Shown here: positions 1,359 through 10,598 of the stretch, piece after piece
How positions within the stretch are numbered: the stretch's first letter is position 1
How the letters are laid out: the number at the start of each line of letters is the position of its first letter
Source: a virus
DNA length: 21,497 bases
IMG/VR virus record: IMGVR_UViG_3300006109_000046
Location: 1-21,497 of that record
Direction: 5' to 3' (one strand)
The notes under the pieces: generated by a model
What the model saw: only the letters and a program-made list of their open reading frames with translations
Told to the model about the DNA's origin: nothing
Database searches by the model: none
Position numbers and translations under genes: made by a program

Positions 1359-3209
1359 CTATTCGTCTGTGGTTTTGGCAGATGCAGCTATTGGTTCTTC
1401 TCTATTGGCCTGATTGGCCATGTCATTTTCCGTTTGGCGAGTGTAGCTGGGCATGGCACCATGCATGATCAATATGTCGTCTCTGATATTTTGGTTGCGT
1501 TTCTCTATGTTGAGTATGCGAGTAAATGAATTCGTTATTGCCGCAGTATAATATGCAAATGGGTTTGGTGTTTCGCTGCGACTCTCATCAAATTGCAGTC
1601 CTATCTGGCTCAGCTGCAGCAGTGCTTGGCATTTCATTTCCTCTATGTACGTGTTGCCTGTGAGATATACCTTGCCGTTCCTGCGCGCCACAAAACAGCC
1701 GTGTTCAGTCTCCGGACACCAAACTCGGCCGTTATACTGAGTGGTTGGCTCATTTGGGTGGTGCGCCTTGCCGCGGCCTGACCCTGGACCGCGTGAATTT
1801 CTACCGTTTCTTTTACCACCATGGAAATCAATGCATTCCACTCGTGTGGTATTTCTTCGTTCTGAGAATAAATTCACCTGATAGAAAGTTGAAGTTGTGC
1901 CGTATGACTGATGATCTAATACCAGATGATGGTTGGTCTTGATACCTGCAAGTGTGCACAGAACCTGCAGCATGTCTATGCCATCTTTGCTCTTCTGCAC
2001 ATAGCGTCTTGGTCCATTTACTCGCCATCTGTCACTGTCGATCATTGTGTTGATTAGCAATTGTCGCTGATCATTGGTCAGTGATAATACAAAATCCATG
2101 GTGAGATTCTTGTTTGGTAATAATTTTGCAATCGTGCGAGAATCTTCACCGGACACAGCAAAGGCTATGTTCTTATTTCTTGGTATTGATTCACTGAACT
2201 TATATCCAAGCTTAATCAAACAGTTGCGTATTCGATCTGCTTTTGATCTAGAATTTTGGTAGATAGTGATGTGTTTGATACCCTTTTCGTTTGATTCGTA
2301 GCAACCTTCTGTCACTATCCAACCTACTAGCTCAACCAAGCAGTCTTCATATATGCCAGATCCATCTTCTACTGCATCTCCCATCAGTATTACCCTGTCA
2401 GATTCCATGAGATGCTCAGCTTTTACCAGCCCTCTTTCAGTAACCAGCTTGTGGTTTGGTGTTATCAACGCATCCATGCCACGTGCTGTGAGACGGTGCA
2501 TGAGACCGTCATACTGCCCACGATATATGCTTTTGATGCTGCTCCAAGTGAGCGAACCATCTGAGTATGATAGGATTGTGTCATCTTCACAAATGTCGTC
2601 TATGCTTAACCAACCTCTTTTGGTCAATGCTTCTGTGGCCGTGTCTACACAATAGCCCCTCCAGTTGCCTCTGTGACCATAGCGCTCTACCAGTTTCATA
2701 AACATCATGGCCAGTTTGTTGGTCATCTTGCCATGTGTCACAGCAAAATGTCCATTCTCCAGCCCGCCCTGCCAGTGGCTCTTGCCCACACACATGAATG
2801 CACCATCTCTGAACACAAAATGTTGAAATGGCGGAAAGTTGCATTTCATGTGACGTTCGGCAGTGGTCTTGGCCTTGGCAGCACGTTCTTGGTTGATGGG
2901 TATGTGATCAAAGGTCATGATGCGTATCACAATGTCTTCCACGGGCACATGTTCCAGTGTCAGTGAGACCACTGGATTGCGTATGCCTTGGGCGATCTGT
3001 GCCTTGCGGCTGGCTGCTGTCAGCTGTTCCAATTTGGCATGTCTAGCGGCGGAGAGCTTGTCCTCAGTGACCATGGCAAGATCGGTGACTATGAAATCAT
3101 AATTGGCATATCGCATGTCTGTGAATTCACAATAGCTGGATTTGCTGCGATGTATTTCTTCCAGCAGATCCTTGTTGGTCAGATATTTGATCTTGGTCAC
3201 TGGGGCCAT
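1359..3209 (-). CDS. 55: T4 gp55-like late-transcription sigma factor, interrupted by an intein
   Basis: The 616-residue product is a phage sigma factor (residues 1-186 and 520-616, 283 residues after splicing) split by an intein. Similarities to T4 gp55 (185 residues, from memory) are the N-terminal TNKDLLEEI, the helix KLAMMFMKLVERY, the RGY-TYIEEMK junction matching T4 SGYTQSWKQEM, and NPFAYYTAAITNSF...IEKR matching T4 NPHAYITQACFNAF...KKER. These lie in the sigma region-2-like core that binds RNA polymerase and the late -10 element. About 100 extra residues (30-160) precede this core. The start at 3209 is backed by GAGGTGA at 3217-3223, seven bases upstream. The gene is divergent from the baseplate operon that it should activate. 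The extein identification is firm; whether unspliced protein has any activity is unknown. Confidence 0.88.
   Translation of the reverse strand: MAPVTKIKYLTNKDLLEEIHRSKSSYCEFTDMRYANYDFIVTDLAMVTEDKLSAARHAKLEQLTAASRKAQIAQGIRNPVVSLTLEHVPVEDIVIRIMTFDHIPINQERAAKAKTTAERHMKCNFPPFQHFVFRDGAFMCVGKSHWQGGLENGHFAVTHGKMTNKLAMMFMKLVERYGHRGNWRGYCVDTATEALTKRGWLSIDDICEDDTILSYSDGSLTWSSIKSIYRGQYDGLMHRLTARGMDALITPNHKLVTERGLVKAEHLMESDRVILMGDAVEDGSGIYEDCLVELVGWIVTEGCYESNEKGIKHITIYQNSRSKADRIRNCLIKLGYKFSESIPRNKNIAFAVSGEDSRTIAKLLPNKNLTMDFVLSLTNDQRQLLINTMIDSDRWRVNGPRRYVQKSKDGIDMLQVLCTLAGIKTNHHLVLDHQSYGTTSTFYQVNLFSERRNTTRVECIDFHGGKRNGRNSRGPGSGRGKAHHPNEPTTQYNGRVWCPETEHGCFVARRNGKVYLTGNTYIEEMKCQALLQLSQIGLQFDESRSETPNPFAYYTAAITNSFTRILNIEKRNQNIRDDILIMHGAMPSYTRQTENDMANQANREEPIAASAKTTDE
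1653..2651 (-). mobile_element. Intein with LAGLIDADG homing endonuclease inside the gp55-like gene
   Basis: Residues 187-519 of the precursor (333 aa) form an intein. It starts with C187 (CVDTATEAL), has the block-B motif TPNH (T250, H253), and ends CFVARRNGKVYLTGN with T520 as the +1 extein residue. A penultimate Gly in place of His, with the preceding RRNGK...TGN pattern, is seen in other phage inteins. Between the splicing halves lie two LAGLIDADG-like motifs, LVGWIVTEG (294-302) and INTMIDSDR (386-394). E301 and D393 are the expected metal-binding acids, so cleavage activity may be retained. Removing it joins RGY to TYIEEMK, restoring the gp55 fold without gap or frameshift. Its codons look more A/T-ended than those of the surrounding phage genes, suggesting later arrival. 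Confidence 0.9.
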
Positions 3210-3357: not shown

Positions 3358-4167
3358 GCAGAGGACATCGGCCAATTTGGCCGCACTGACACATCATCCA
3401 CGCCCAGCAGCGATGCCTTTGGTCGCAGAGTTCGTCTGCGACCCAAACCTGCTGCTGTTTCGCAGATCTATGGCCTCAGTGGGCTCTTACAGCCTTTGAA
3501 AACCACCAACGGCATGATATGGCCCTATCAGCCCACAATCACCTATGATGCACAGGTAGACTATGCCAACATAGAGTTGGTACATGTGAATCAGGAAATA
3601 TTGGCCTATACCAAAACTCCTTCTGTCAAGCTCACTGTGGCTGGTGCATACAGCGTACAGAATCAACAAGAAGGTATCTATGCACTGGCCTGTATTCATT
3701 TCCTGCAAACAGTGACCAAGATGTACTTTGGCAGCAGTGGTGACAACAATGGCACGCCACCGCCTGTGCTGCTGTTTGATGCCTATGGTCAGTACATGTT
3801 CAATGCCTTGCCTGTGCTGGTGACCAGTTTTAGTGTTGAGCTCAATAACGACATCGACTACGTGCCAATAAACCTAGCCAACATACAGACCTATACTGCA
3901 CTGCAGGCCCAGACCAATAGTGTGGGCTACAGCCGGCTGCAGACCACCACACAGATGACTTCCAATGGCGATGCCAGAAACGCAGCCTATGTGGCCAGCA
4001 GAATATTTCAGCAGAGCCTACAGAGCACAGAAGGCTACATCTGGCTGCCCAGTGTGTTCAGCATCACGGTGGGCCTCACTGTGCAAAACACCGCAGCAAG
4101 ACTGCGCAGTTTCAATCTGGATTCCTTCCGCACTGGCCAATTGATGAAAGGAGGTGGTTGGATATGA
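3355..4167 (+). CDS. 48: gp48-like baseplate tail-tube cap protein
   Basis: The 270-residue product caps the baseplate hub and is the base on which the tail tube polymerises, if it acts like T4 gp48 (or the related gp54). Features seen: an N-terminal VRLRPKP stretch, GMIWPYQPTITY, FLQTVTKMYFG, PPPVLLFDAYGQYMFNALPV, and near the C-terminus LPSVFSITVGLTVQ, which parallels LPSTFTLEITM near the end of T4 gp48. This pattern fits the gp48 proteins of marine T4-like phages. The frame remains open upstream to 3142, but that part is antisense to the gp55 gene, so I start at ATG 3355. The only ribosome site is GGAG at 3338-3341, 13 bases away, which is long. The gene ends in an ATGA overlap with the gp53-like gene. 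Confidence 0.78.
   Translation: MAEDIGQFGRTDTSSTPSSDAFGRRVRLRPKPAAVSQIYGLSGLLQPLKTTNGMIWPYQPTITYDAQVDYANIELVHVNQEILAYTKTPSVKLTVAGAYSVQNQQEGIYALACIHFLQTVTKMYFGSSGDNNGTPPPVLLFDAYGQYMFNALPVLVTSFSVELNNDIDYVPINLANIQTYTALQAQTNSVGYSRLQTTTQMTSNGDARNAAYVASRIFQQSLQSTEGYIWLPSVFSITVGLTVQNTAARLRSFNLDSFRTGQLMKGGGWI
4147..4155 (+). promoter_or_regulatory. Strong ribosome binding site for the gp53-like gene
   Basis: AAAGGAGGT inside the end of the gp48-like gene sits eight bases before ATG at 4164. It decides for this ATG over the TTG codon at 4158 in the same frame. Confidence 0.75.
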
Positions 4168-4472
4168 CACAGGTCACCTACACTCCCCAGAGTACCTATT
4201 ATCAAACTCCACAGATCAGCAACTATGTCAGCTATTTGGATTTCTGGAATGGGCAATATATTCTACCTCAGGGATCTGACAGCATCTATCAAATACCTGG
4301 TGTATACAACCATAGACCAGATCTTCTCAGCTATGAACTCTACGGAACCAGCCAACTTTGGTGGGTGTTTGCCCTGCGCAACCCCAATCAGCTGTTGGAC
4401 CCTGTGTGGGATTTTGTCAGTGGTCTGACCATTTACATACCCAGCAAGGAAACTTTGACAAGGTATGGCTGA
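4164..4472 (+). CDS. 53: gp53-like baseplate wedge protein
   Basis: A small protein of 102 residues. The core RPDLLSYELYGTSQLWWVFA followed by LRNPNQLLDPVWDF matches T4 gp53, which has RPEELANAIYGNPQLYWVLL. In T4, gp53 (196 residues) joins neighbouring wedges when the baseplate ring closes. The present protein is about half that length, ending soon after the conserved core with GLTIYIP, so the C-terminal part of T4 gp53 is missing; short versions are usual in environmental relatives as far as I recall. Its start overlaps the gp48 stop (ATGA) and its stop overlaps the next start (TGATG), so the three genes are probably translationally coupled. Confidence 0.8.
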   Translation: MTQVTYTPQSTYYQTPQISNYVSYLDFWNGQYILPQGSDSIYQIPGVYNHRPDLLSYELYGTSQLWWVFALRNPNQLLDPVWDFVSGLTIYIPSKETLTRYG

Positions 4473-7185: not shown

Positions 7186-10128
7186 ATGGTATCATTCCAT
7201 AGAACAGCCAAAACTCCGGATGCCTTTAATCTACAGCCTGCAGGCAGATCCACAAGTCTCACCAGTATATATGTGGGCTTTGTGAAAACTGTGTTGGATC
7301 AGCAGTACATGGGGCGTATACAGGTTTGGATTCCAGAAATCAGTGGCGATGTCAATGACAAGAGTCAGTGGTTTACCTGCAGCTATGCCAGTCCGTTTGC
7401 TGGCGCCACCAGCATTACCAAAAACACTCACGGGCCAGCATGGAACAACAGCCAACGCAGCTATGGTTTTTGGTTTGTGCCACCGGATCTGGAAAATGAA
7501 GTAGTGGTATGTTTTGCCAATGGTGATCCTGCGCGGGGCCTTTGGTTTGGTTGCCTGTATCAACAGAACATGAACCACATGGTGCCTGGTATACCGGGTG
7601 ATCCCAGTACCAATGGTCTACCAGTTGTGGAATACAACAAAATTCGTCAAGACATCACAGTCAACACAGCCGTGGGACCAATATACACTCCATTGGCAGA
7701 TCAGTTGAAGATACAGGGGTTGGAAAAGGATCCCTTGCGTGGAACCTCAACCAGTGGTGCAAGGCGCAGCCAACCTGCCAACGGTGTGTATGGCATATTG
7801 ACTCCTGGTGCCAATCAGTTTGTCATGGATGATGGCGCAGATGGTGCTTACATACGGCTGCGCACACAAAGTGGCACAGCCATCACAGTGAGTGAAACTG
7901 ACGGCAGTATCTATATGATAAGCCGTGACGGCAACAGCTGGATGGAACTGGGAGTTGATGGCAGTATCAACATCTATGGCAGCAATAACCTCAACATACG
8001 CACACAGGGCATTCTCAACCTGCATGCTGATCTGGATATCAATATTGAAGCTGGTCGCAGCATCTACATGAAGGCCAGAGGCGATGTCAACAGTGTGGTT
8101 CTCAATGCTGCACCAGCCACTGCTGCTGACAGCGGACAGATTGTCACTGCCACCACCAGCAGCAATGCCCAGGTGCCGGCCATTGCTGTGTCAGACACAC
8201 ACGTGACCATTGCTGCACCCAGCAATGGCATTACCGGAGAGTTTGTGCCCGGCATGACCATAACTGGCATACCATGGAACAACCCCACATCAGACACTGC
8301 TCCGCCTACCCCAGCACCCACACCTGCAGTGCCAGGCAGTGGTGCACCCGTGGTCCTTGTGGGGGACACAGCAGCAGGCGGCATAGCTGCCACACTGGCA
8401 ACCAAATATCCTGGCACACTGACCAACATCATGCCAAATGTGCTGAGCAGCAGTTTGGACAGCACCATAAAAAGCACGCCAACACTGCAGAATGCACAGT
8501 ATGCAGTGGTCAGCGTGGGGGACTATGACACTCGCAGCACAGAAACTTCAGCTGGACAGCTGAGCGAAAGCCTTGTGTCCATACGTCAGAGTCTCAATGC
8601 CAAATACTACATTTGGATATTGCCTTTGGATCCCACAGCACATGCCACTGTATATGGTTTTGCCACTGGAGTGGGAGATGTGCCTCAGGCACAGGTTTTG
8701 GACTATGCCACAGGTGGCACAAACAGCGCTCAGTTGGCAGACAACGTGCTTGGCAACATTGGCCAAATAGTCACACCAACACCTCCTGACAACATCACCA
8801 GCACTGCTACCACAGTGCCTGCTGCACAACCCAACGGTCTGCTGGCCAGCGTATCTACCAATGATGATGGCAGCATTACCTATCTCAATGTGACTTTTGC
8901 CAGTGGCAATCAGAGCATAGTCAGCAATGCCAGTGTGATCACTGGTACTCTGCAGAATCCCACTAGCAATGTCACAGTGCCGCAAACCAACAACAACAGC
9001 ACTGCTCCTGGTGTGATCATGTTCAACGCCAATGCCACCATGCATGTGACCAGCGGCAGTGACATGTTCATACAGAGCGGTGGCATCATGGCTCGCACCA
9101 GTCAAAGCAACATGTTTGACTATGCCTACGGCAGCTATGATCTGGCCGTGGGAGGATACCTCACCATGCAGAGCAATGGCCTACTGAGCATTGGCACTAC
9201 CAATAACATGCTGATTGGGGCCAACCGCATAGATCTCAATGGCCCGGCTCCACAGGCTGCCAAGGCCGCACCGGCTGCGCTCAAACCCATTGACTCACAA
9301 CAGCAGGATGTGCTGGTGGTGGGCCCGGGCTCATTTGACTTTGTGTTGAAAAACACCATAGTCAGCCAGCTGGTGACTCATGAGCCCTATGGTGGACATT
9401 CGGCCGCAGCTCCTGGATACAGAGGACATGTGGACCAGGGCACGGCCATTGATCCCAACACCGGGGCTCCGCTACTGCAGGGTCAGGTGGTTGGCGGTCA
9501 GACCATTCCCCTCAGCATCAATGGCACGCCCAACGGCAACAGTCCGCCTGGCATGTATGAGGGTCAGGGCTACAGTGCCAGTGGCCAACCGCAATATGCC
9601 AACACTGGTCCTGCTGAAGGACAGGTGCCCCCGGGTACTCTGCAGCTGAGCAATGCAGGTGCACAGTTTATTGCGGCCTTTGAAGGCAAGAAAAGCACAG
9701 TGTATTTGGACAGTGCCAATCTGCCGACCATTGGCATAGGACATCTGCTGTTGGCAGAAGAAAAGGCAGGCAACTATGTGATTATTGCTGGGCAAAAAAG
9801 ACCGCTGCCTCCGCAGGGAGGACCTCTGACTGATGCTGAGATTGTGTCCCTGTTTCGTCACGAGCTTGAGCGGTTTGTTCAGATCGTGCGCACTCAGATC
9901 AAGGTGCCGCTGAGTCAAACACAGTTTGACATGTTGGTGAGTTTTGCCTACAACGTGGGCAATATCAATGCGCTGGCAGCTGTGATCAATACCAACAATT
10001 ACAACGTCACTGACATTTTCATGCAGTTTGTGCATGCCAAGGGTGCTGTGATCAAGGGTCTAGTGCGACGACGTCAGGCTGAAGCGGCCAATTTCAGTGC
10101 AGGCAAGATCATCAACCCTGGTGGTTGA
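7186..10128 (+). CDS. 5: gp5-like baseplate hub/spike protein with C-terminal lysozyme and embedded SGNH-like domain
   Basis: The 980-residue product is the central spike that punctures the outer membrane and opens peptidoglycan. Domains in order: an OB-fold (about 24-130; SIYVGFVKTV, YMGRIQVWIPE, NEVVVCFANGDPARGLWFG); a beta-helix-like stretch of alternating residues (about 210-300; ITVSETDGSIYMISRDGNSW); an SGNH-like domain (about 385-530) with degenerate catalytic positions; a second beta-rich part (about 555-690); a THEPYGGH motif (731-738); a Gly/Pro/Gln-rich linker; and a T4-type lysozyme (GH24, about 822-970). E833, D842 and T848 have exactly the spacing of T4 lysozyme E11, D20, T26, followed by IGIGH and SFAYNVG, so muramidase activity is likely. 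In T4 gp5 the lysozyme sits between OB and beta-helix; here it is at the C-terminus. Start ATG 7186 with AAGGT at 7176-7180. Confidence 0.88.
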   Translation: MVSFHRTAKTPDAFNLQPAGRSTSLTSIYVGFVKTVLDQQYMGRIQVWIPEISGDVNDKSQWFTCSYASPFAGATSITKNTHGPAWNNSQRSYGFWFVPPDLENEVVVCFANGDPARGLWFGCLYQQNMNHMVPGIPGDPSTNGLPVVEYNKIRQDITVNTAVGPIYTPLADQLKIQGLEKDPLRGTSTSGARRSQPANGVYGILTPGANQFVMDDGADGAYIRLRTQSGTAITVSETDGSIYMISRDGNSWMELGVDGSINIYGSNNLNIRTQGILNLHADLDINIEAGRSIYMKARGDVNSVVLNAAPATAADSGQIVTATTSSNAQVPAIAVSDTHVTIAAPSNGITGEFVPGMTITGIPWNNPTSDTAPPTPAPTPAVPGSGAPVVLVGDTAAGGIAATLATKYPGTLTNIMPNVLSSSLDSTIKSTPTLQNAQYAVVSVGDYDTRSTETSAGQLSESLVSIRQSLNAKYYIWILPLDPTAHATVYGFATGVGDVPQAQVLDYATGGTNSAQLADNVLGNIGQIVTPTPPDNITSTATTVPAAQPNGLLASVSTNDDGSITYLNVTFASGNQSIVSNASVITGTLQNPTSNVTVPQTNNNSTAPGVIMFNANATMHVTSGSDMFIQSGGIMARTSQSNMFDYAYGSYDLAVGGYLTMQSNGLLSIGTTNNMLIGANRIDLNGPAPQAAKAAPAALKPIDSQQQDVLVVGPGSFDFVLKNTIVSQLVTHEPYGGHSAAAPGYRGHVDQGTAIDPNTGAPLLQGQVVGGQTIPLSINGTPNGNSPPGMYEGQGYSASGQPQYANTGPAEGQVPPGTLQLSNAGAQFIAAFEGKKSTVYLDSANLPTIGIGHLLLAEEKAGNYVIIAGQKRPLPPQGGPLTDAEIVSLFRHELERFVQIVRTQIKVPLSQTQFDMLVSFAYNVGNINALAAVINTNNYNVTDIFMQFVHAKGAVIKGLVRRRQAEAANFSAGKIINPGG

Positions 10129-10199: not shown

Positions 10200-10598
10200 A
10201 TGGCCACCATTGCACCACAAAGAGTTTTCTACGGTTTCAGCACACTGGATACCACTGCCAAACAGCAGACCTTTGCTGATGTGCCTTTGATACAGAGAGA
10301 TCTCTATAATCATTTCAATACTCTCAAAGGTGAGAGACTGATGATGCCGCAATATGGCTGCAGCATCTGGGACTATTTGTTTGAACCCTTTGACGATGCT
10401 GTGGTACAGAGTGTGGCAGCCGAAGCCACCCGCATAGTCAATACTGACAGCCGTGTGCAGCTACAGAGTCTGCAGGTAATACCCTTTGCCAATGGTATGA
10501 TTGTGCAGATGCAACTGTTTTACCTGCCATTTGGGGTTACCAACACCTTTAGTGTACAGTTTGATCAAGACGCAGTAAACCTAGATGCAATAGGTTGA
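10200..10598 (+). CDS. 25: gp25-like baseplate wedge protein
   Basis: The 132-residue product has the length of T4 gp25 and its characteristic core: a predicted N-terminal strand and helix region (VFYGFSTLDT, DVPLIQRDLYNHFNTLKGER) followed by MMPQYGCSIWDYLFEPFDD, which fits the region of gp25 that binds gp6 and the sheath. Proteins of this family, also called GPW/gp25, contact the gp6 wedge and start the contractile sheath; the fold is shared with type VI secretion TssE. It begins at ATG 10200 with AGAGGT 11 bases upstream, and is followed after 12 bases by gp6, its structural partner. Of its seven Ile codons four are ATA, the general bias of this phage. Confidence 0.85.
   Translation: MATIAPQRVFYGFSTLDTTAKQQTFADVPLIQRDLYNHFNTLKGERLMMPQYGCSIWDYLFEPFDDAVVQSVAAEATRIVNTDSRVQLQSLQVIPFANGMIVQMQLFYLPFGVTNTFSVQFDQDAVNLDAIG

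Follow-up and report, generated by a model that had tools for sequence, protein, structure and literature searches.

Why does a gp5-like, membrane-puncturing spike carry a domain that reads like an SGNH hydrolase with its catalytic residues replaced? The question is raised by virus record IMGVR_UViG_3300006109_000046, of which positions 1 to 21,497, here called the window, were analysed as one stretch of 21,497 nucleotides. A preliminary description of this DNA had placed such a domain at 8338-8775, residues 385-530 of the open reading frame 7186-10128, and all the strings that it quoted are present there. The spike, its parts and two neighbouring baseplate genes are laid out as follows.

4158..4472, + strand: gp53-like baseplate wedge subunit, a neighbour of the spike gene (PF11246, 1.1e-5; phrog_7145, 3e-23)
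7186..10128, + strand: P0001, gp5-like central spike, 980 aa (PHROG, Pfam, tblastn)
7186..8085, + strand: OB domain and first beta region, residues 1-300, the conserved N-terminal part (PF04717)
8086..8979, + strand: insertion, residues 301-598, absent from L019-L021 (BLASTP junction)
8338..8778, + strand: SGNH-fold domain, residues 385-531, by prediction catalytically degenerate (held-out HMM, AlphaFold2, PDB matches)
8368..8370, + strand: Thr395 at the block I nucleophile position, GDS to GDT (alignments)
8524..8526, + strand: Tyr447 at the block III Asn position, SxGxND to SVGDYD (alignments)
8698..8748, + strand: block V region LDYATGGTNSAQLADNV, from residue 505, without a D-x-x-H-P motif (alignments)
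8980..9285, + strand: second beta region, beta-helix-like, residues 599-700 (weak PF10106 DUF2345 match, 605-683)
9676..10083, + strand: C-terminal GH24 lysozyme, residues 831-966 (PF00959, 3.7e-24)
10200..10598, + strand: gp25-like baseplate wedge subunit, a neighbour of the spike gene (PF04965, 1.8e-9)

The location of the domain in a gp5-like spike is agreed on by PHROG, Pfam and tblastn. P0001 matches PHROG 13211, 'baseplate hub subunit and tail lysozyme', at 2e-48, and in a tblastn search it aligns with gp5-type proteins from jumbo phages, Agrobacterium phage Atu_ph07 among them. Judged by the N-terminal third, the nearest cultured relatives are jumbo phages including Agrobacterium phage Atu_ph07 and Pseudomonas phage PA5oct. 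The PF04717 OB domain is present (E 1.5e-9, best stretch 92-125), and residues 1-300 are common to spike relatives with and without an SGNH domain. The second beta region is also conserved in SGNH-less spikes and has a mean identity of 0.81 in the window clade, the group of close relatives defined below; the evidence for a triple-stranded beta-helix consists of the weak DUF2345 match and repetitive beta-like sequence. In the C-terminal lysozyme a motif listing showed Glu833, Asp842 and Thr848 spaced 9 and 6 residues apart, as in T4 lysozyme, where the counterparts are Glu11, Asp20 and Thr26. With this spacing the GH24 catalytic residues appear intact and the lysozyme looks active. Elsewhere in the window, at 1362-3209 on the minus strand, lies a gp55-like late sigma factor gene that is apparently split by an intein containing a LAGLIDADG-like domain; the sigma matches lie on either side of residues ~185-520, and this middle segment resembles other families in which such inserts are known.

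Searches against family libraries were not enough to establish the SGNH identity: with Pfam, PHROG and NCBIfam, neither the window domain nor the intact copies gave more than weak SGNH matches, if any. Taken alone, the window domain matches nothing in Pfam or PHROG at E<=1, and its homology is therefore visible only via relatives and structure. An HMM built from SGNH relatives minus the window clade gave P0001 a score of 78.6 bits (E 5e-24); with the remotest relatives alone the score was 51.3 bits. The best of 200 shuffled copies of P0001, in which the SGNH domain alone was altered and the rest left unchanged, reached 4.8 and 4.6 bits in the two HMMs, which places the match far above chance. 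A profile search of PDB sequences gave marginal matches to OatA-type acyltransferases (E 0.003); the same kind of search with a five-sequence spike set gave one unrelated match only.

The fold was approached through structure prediction. An AlphaFold2 model of residues 375-545, based on 49 relatives, has a pLDDT of 87.9 and a pTM of 0.81, with five strand-helix units in order; its alignment contains intact relatives, so the model may be pulled towards the canonical fold. In Foldseek and VIA-align comparisons the top PDB matches are SGNH enzymes, with a VIA Z of up to 15.8 over ~133-148 residues. They include Staphylococcus aureus OatA (6wn9, Z 15.4) and TesA (Z 15.4), and further matches are GDSL lipases, acetylxylan esterases and a few designed scaffolds. 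Among viral structures, the tail spike of Pectobacterium phage PP99 is one of the matches. A longer model, covering residues 285-640, has a mean pLDDT of 64.6 with low confidence beyond the SGNH domain, for which reason the linkers are assigned no fold; its SGNH part found the same PDB matches and in addition PatB (7tjb, Z 13.4). OatA and PatB are the SGNH enzymes of peptidoglycan O-acetylation among the structural matches. Residues 385-531 are predicted by these models to have an SGNH-hydrolase fold, a three-layer alpha/beta/alpha structure. The preliminary description had proposed this fold and held that a predicted structure of another kind would refute it; the predicted structure agreed with the proposal.

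Alignments with the relatives showed what has become of the active site. At block I, Thr395 takes the place of the nucleophilic Ser. At block III, Gly445 is kept and the Asn of the oxyanion hole is replaced by Tyr447. Both replacements had been read from the sequence beforehand and are confirmed. The suspected loss of the His was likewise borne out: intact relatives carry D-x-x-H-P at block V, for example DGIHPKNY in L080, while the window has no His at this position and is missing the HP dipeptide of L080 and L081. In the block II column, where the alignment is uncertain, the window has Asn, most intact copies Gly, and the intact L080 and L081 Ser. Of the Ser-His-Asp triad of the OatA/PatB type, the Ser and the His are absent. 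With nucleophile, oxyanion Asn and base all missing, the SGNH mechanism cannot work, and judged from its residues the window domain is a predicted pseudo-enzyme, non-catalytic by that mechanism.

The loss is not confined to the window. Among 51 distinct SGNH domains, Ser, Asn and His are all kept in 29 and at least one is lost in 22. Copies with an intact Ser-Asn-His set, for which a homolog survey had been proposed in the preliminary description, were found among the spikes themselves: 14 of 36 distinct spike copies keep the triad and 22 have lost it. The triad is kept in 15 of 15 non-spike copies, and all 22 degenerate copies are spike copies, a restriction that is possibly biased because the search pattern contained GDSIA. 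Scans starting from non-spike copies, with patterns spread over the domain, again read all copies as intact, and remote dead stand-alone copies could escape these scans.

On a maximum-likelihood tree from which the three catalytic columns were left out, the intact or lost state changes at least 6 times. This pattern needs at least 6 independent inactivations, all in spikes of the GH24-lysozyme group. The window clade consists of the window, L004, L006, L009, L010, L013, L029 and L115, and in these eight, in the same order, the Ser column reads T, L, N, D, S, Y, D and A. The Asn is kept except in the window and L004, the block V His is absent from every copy, and L010 keeps Ser and Asn. Beside this clade, the tree places a sister group with L080 and L081 among its members, both intact and both with ~40% identity to the window domain; their spikes carry GDSIA, SxGSND and DG(I/V)HP.

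Non-spike SGNH copies occur as stand-alone proteins of ~130-175 aa, as superoxide dismutase fusions (L086-L096) and in proteins of ~2000 aa. In two viral contigs (L086:1617-2771 and L094:2079-3116) the domain lies behind an Fe/Mn superoxide dismutase and has its triad intact. An 859-aa protein (L106:1963-4539) holds a seemingly circularly permuted SGNH domain with the block order III (SMGTND), V (DGYHP), I (VVVGDSIAQG). A second, stand-alone SGNH protein with an intact triad (ORFs of 137-166 aa) is found at L122:2110-2520 and, on the minus strand, in L123 and L124. Stand-alone SGNH genes co-occur with a dead spike copy (G001) or an intact one (G003, G016). The idea that a second, intact SGNH gene generally takes over from a dead spike copy was rejected, since G003 has both intact.

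Two close pairs bring the change down to single sites. The domains of L060 and L062 are 86% identical, and Ser, Asn and His are replaced by Gly, Gly and Tyr. Those of L080 and L108 are 74% identical, and the same three residues are Thr, Tyr and Thr in L108. All three catalytic positions changed in each pair, against 2 of 42 other core positions in the first and 1 of 38 in the second (Fisher p 0.0007 and 0.0004, values that describe the pattern and are no blind test, the pairs having been picked for differing state). Outside the SGNH domain L080 and L108 are about equally diverged (0.60-0.73 identity), L060 and L062 less so (0.90-0.96). Dead copies keep fold residues at zero entropy, namely the block I Gly, the block III Ser and Gly, and the Trp and Pro of WILP, in a ranking that is biased because the dead set was defined by the catalytic residues. 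Step counts within clades are fairer. In the window clade 2 of 146 columns take as many as 6 steps, and the Ser column is one of them; in a second dead clade 2 of 140 do so, one of which is the Asn column. With catalytic columns so variable in the dead clades, a conserved new pocket is not evident.

One cause of such losses could be selection against catalysis itself, if the activity did harm or brought no benefit on the present hosts, as it might where the peptidoglycan is not O-acetylated. Such selection would leave room for either kind of present role, binding or architectural. In its favour are the joint loss of all three residues between close relatives that keep the fold, and the intact state of all non-spike copies. 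Relaxed constraint after one loss would give a similar pattern, however; moreover, an intact stand-alone copy stands beside dead (G001) and intact (G003) spike copies alike. Selection of this kind is a possible but doubtful cause.

The position of the domain in the spike bears on its present role. In P0001 it follows the OB/first beta region and precedes the second beta region. In L019-L021 the equivalent of residue 300 is joined directly to that of residue 599 (BLASTP q1-300:s4-303 / q599-973:s304-682), and the SGNH domain is therefore part of an insert in an otherwise shared spike. The absence is clean both in L019-L021 and in the related spike L045. As relatives without the insertion exist, its deletion is tolerated; the window clade nonetheless keeps it. 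In other spikes the SGNH domain sits elsewhere, starting at residue 538 (L080) or 541 (L108), or being C-terminal (L092, L097 and L105). The L080 and L108 spikes have an extra domain of ~140 aa (residues ~387-525; L080:1550-1966 and L108:4542-4964) between OB and SGNH, which is absent from the window. By eye it is transglycosylase-like (NEGAGSYQ...GPYQLY), and no library match confirms the likeness to lytic transglycosylases.

A purely architectural role, in which a bulky side domain acts as a spacer or a lock for the spike trimer in the baseplate and binds no ligand, agrees with this placement in the shaft and with the fact that dead copies preserve motif positions of the fold core and not the catalytic sites. 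Homologous spikes that do without the domain speak against it, as do the different positions in L080, L092, L097 and L105, where one fixed slot would predict otherwise. As a full account it seems rather unlikely, though conceivable.

In the window clade the SGNH domain with its linkers is the fastest-evolving part of the spike, with a mean identity of 0.62 against 0.78-0.81 for the OB, second beta and lysozyme regions. For the SGNH domain the median dN is ~0.33 and dS is ~2.5 or saturated; dN is far below dS, and with dS saturated the estimate of selection is rough. Every distinct window-clade copy that spans the domain retains an open frame and the core of the fold. Slow dN and an open frame fit an apparent constraint on the fold combined with freedom at the old active site. 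An inert relic, a useless domain that decays by drift and whose deletion has just not happened yet, would account for the fast evolution and for catalytic sites that vary freely once lost, but the preserved frame and fold core, the low dN and the clean absence in L019-L021 and L045, by which retention is not forced, make it improbable. Thr can stand in for Ser as nucleophile in some hydrolases, and L010 keeps Ser and Asn, but an enzyme that still works by a non-canonical mechanism, with a Thr nucleophile or another residue as base, is very improbable, as no window-clade copy has a block V His and conserved catalysis would hardly allow a Ser column as mixed as that of the eight copies.

Residues 385-531 are thus probably a non-catalytic SGNH domain that has been retained for a function. 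With catalysis lost and the domain retained, a non-catalytic role, either in binding or in architecture, is the best reading.

A history can be proposed for this retained domain. Its ancestral intact form may well have been a carbohydrate esterase that removed O-acetyl groups from peptidoglycan or other cell-surface sugars, a de-O-acetylation that would let the muramidase domains of the same spike cut. Peptidoglycan hydrolases accompany the intact SGNH domain in spikes: some have two GH24 domains, others, with weaker scores, GH19- or M15-like domains. Because of this company and the resemblance of the fold to OatA and PatB, the intact module likely de-O-acetylates; its ancestral substrate, peptidoglycan or another surface sugar, is a guess. 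On this account an esterase module beside lysozymes would have lost its activity repeatedly and persisted in non-catalytic form. Today its old pocket and surface may bind an envelope component, and binding of surface sugars or peptidoglycan is a plausible candidate role for the window domain. Alternatively, and this is doubtful, the domain would fit into spike and baseplate assembly. The C-terminal lysozyme would still do the cutting. It seems unlikely that the spike SGNH module was repeatedly converted from an esterase into a rapidly diversifying, non-catalytic envelope-binding module; if it was, selection would act on the former active-site pocket and shift its ligand specificity as in receptor-binding domains. 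For this reading speak the Ser column of the window clade and the Asn column of the second dead clade, each of which ranks with the two most changed columns of the domain.

The spikes with two GH24 domains (L026:4989-8633 and similar ones, e.g. L018, L022, L027, L030 and L061-L063) show a separate feature. In their C-terminal GH24 copy the Glu-Asp-Thr motif seems to be without its Asp and Thr, as in RENGSYRPIEVGNPPKQEIGYGH, and this copy may be a second pseudo-enzyme in the same protein.

Several known systems share parts of this arrangement. P0001 resembles T4 gp5 in its OB domain, lysozyme and beta regions, and it also lies near gp53- and gp25-like baseplate genes. The lysozyme of T4 gp5 sits between the OB domain and the beta-helix, whereas that of P0001 is C-terminal; P0001 has the inserted SGNH domain, and to our knowledge T4 gp5 has none. 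A precedent for a cell-wall hydrolase fold that outlives its catalysis is SpmX, in which a phage-type lysozyme was reportedly co-opted and detoxified in bacteria. SpmX differs in its fold, its bacterial setting and its developmental role. OatA (6wn9/6vjp) and PatB (7tjb) share with the window domain the three-layer fold, the small size (OatA ~155 aa) and the order of the blocks. The window domain is ~14% identical to OatA; unlike these enzymes it lacks the Ser, the block III Asn and the His, and it sits in a phage spike. A further system is gp55 of Pectobacterium phage PP99, an SGNH-like tailspike that was shown to deacetylate O-polysaccharide (PMC6989608). It has the same fold in a phage virion protein, but tailspikes of this type are receptor-binding, whereas the window domain lies in the central membrane-puncturing spike and, by its residues, would be non-catalytic.

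The literature searched, which included few subscription papers, contained no description of an SGNH domain in a gp5/VgrG-type spike, and a survey of 224 jumbo phages makes no mention of SGNH or GDSL (PMC7824862). One scan of bacterial genomes gave no convincing relative, the two matches being weak or partial (26% identity; a 29-residue stretch). Among 50,697 phage records only two distant proteins, one small and stand-alone and one from an unannotated record, match the intact domain at E<=0.01, and at that sensitivity the search therefore found no isolate with this spike SGNH domain. The fold and the spike are known; new are their combination, not seen in isolates here, and the recurrent loss of the catalytic residues.

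How a spike passes through the envelope, beyond mechanical puncture and lysozyme action, is poorly known. The spikes described here show clearly, for a virion protein, that catalytic residues can be lost in a targeted way, time after time, from a fold that itself persists. Natural matched pairs of closely related spikes, one member with the triad and one lacking it, make the question of catalysis versus binding directly testable.
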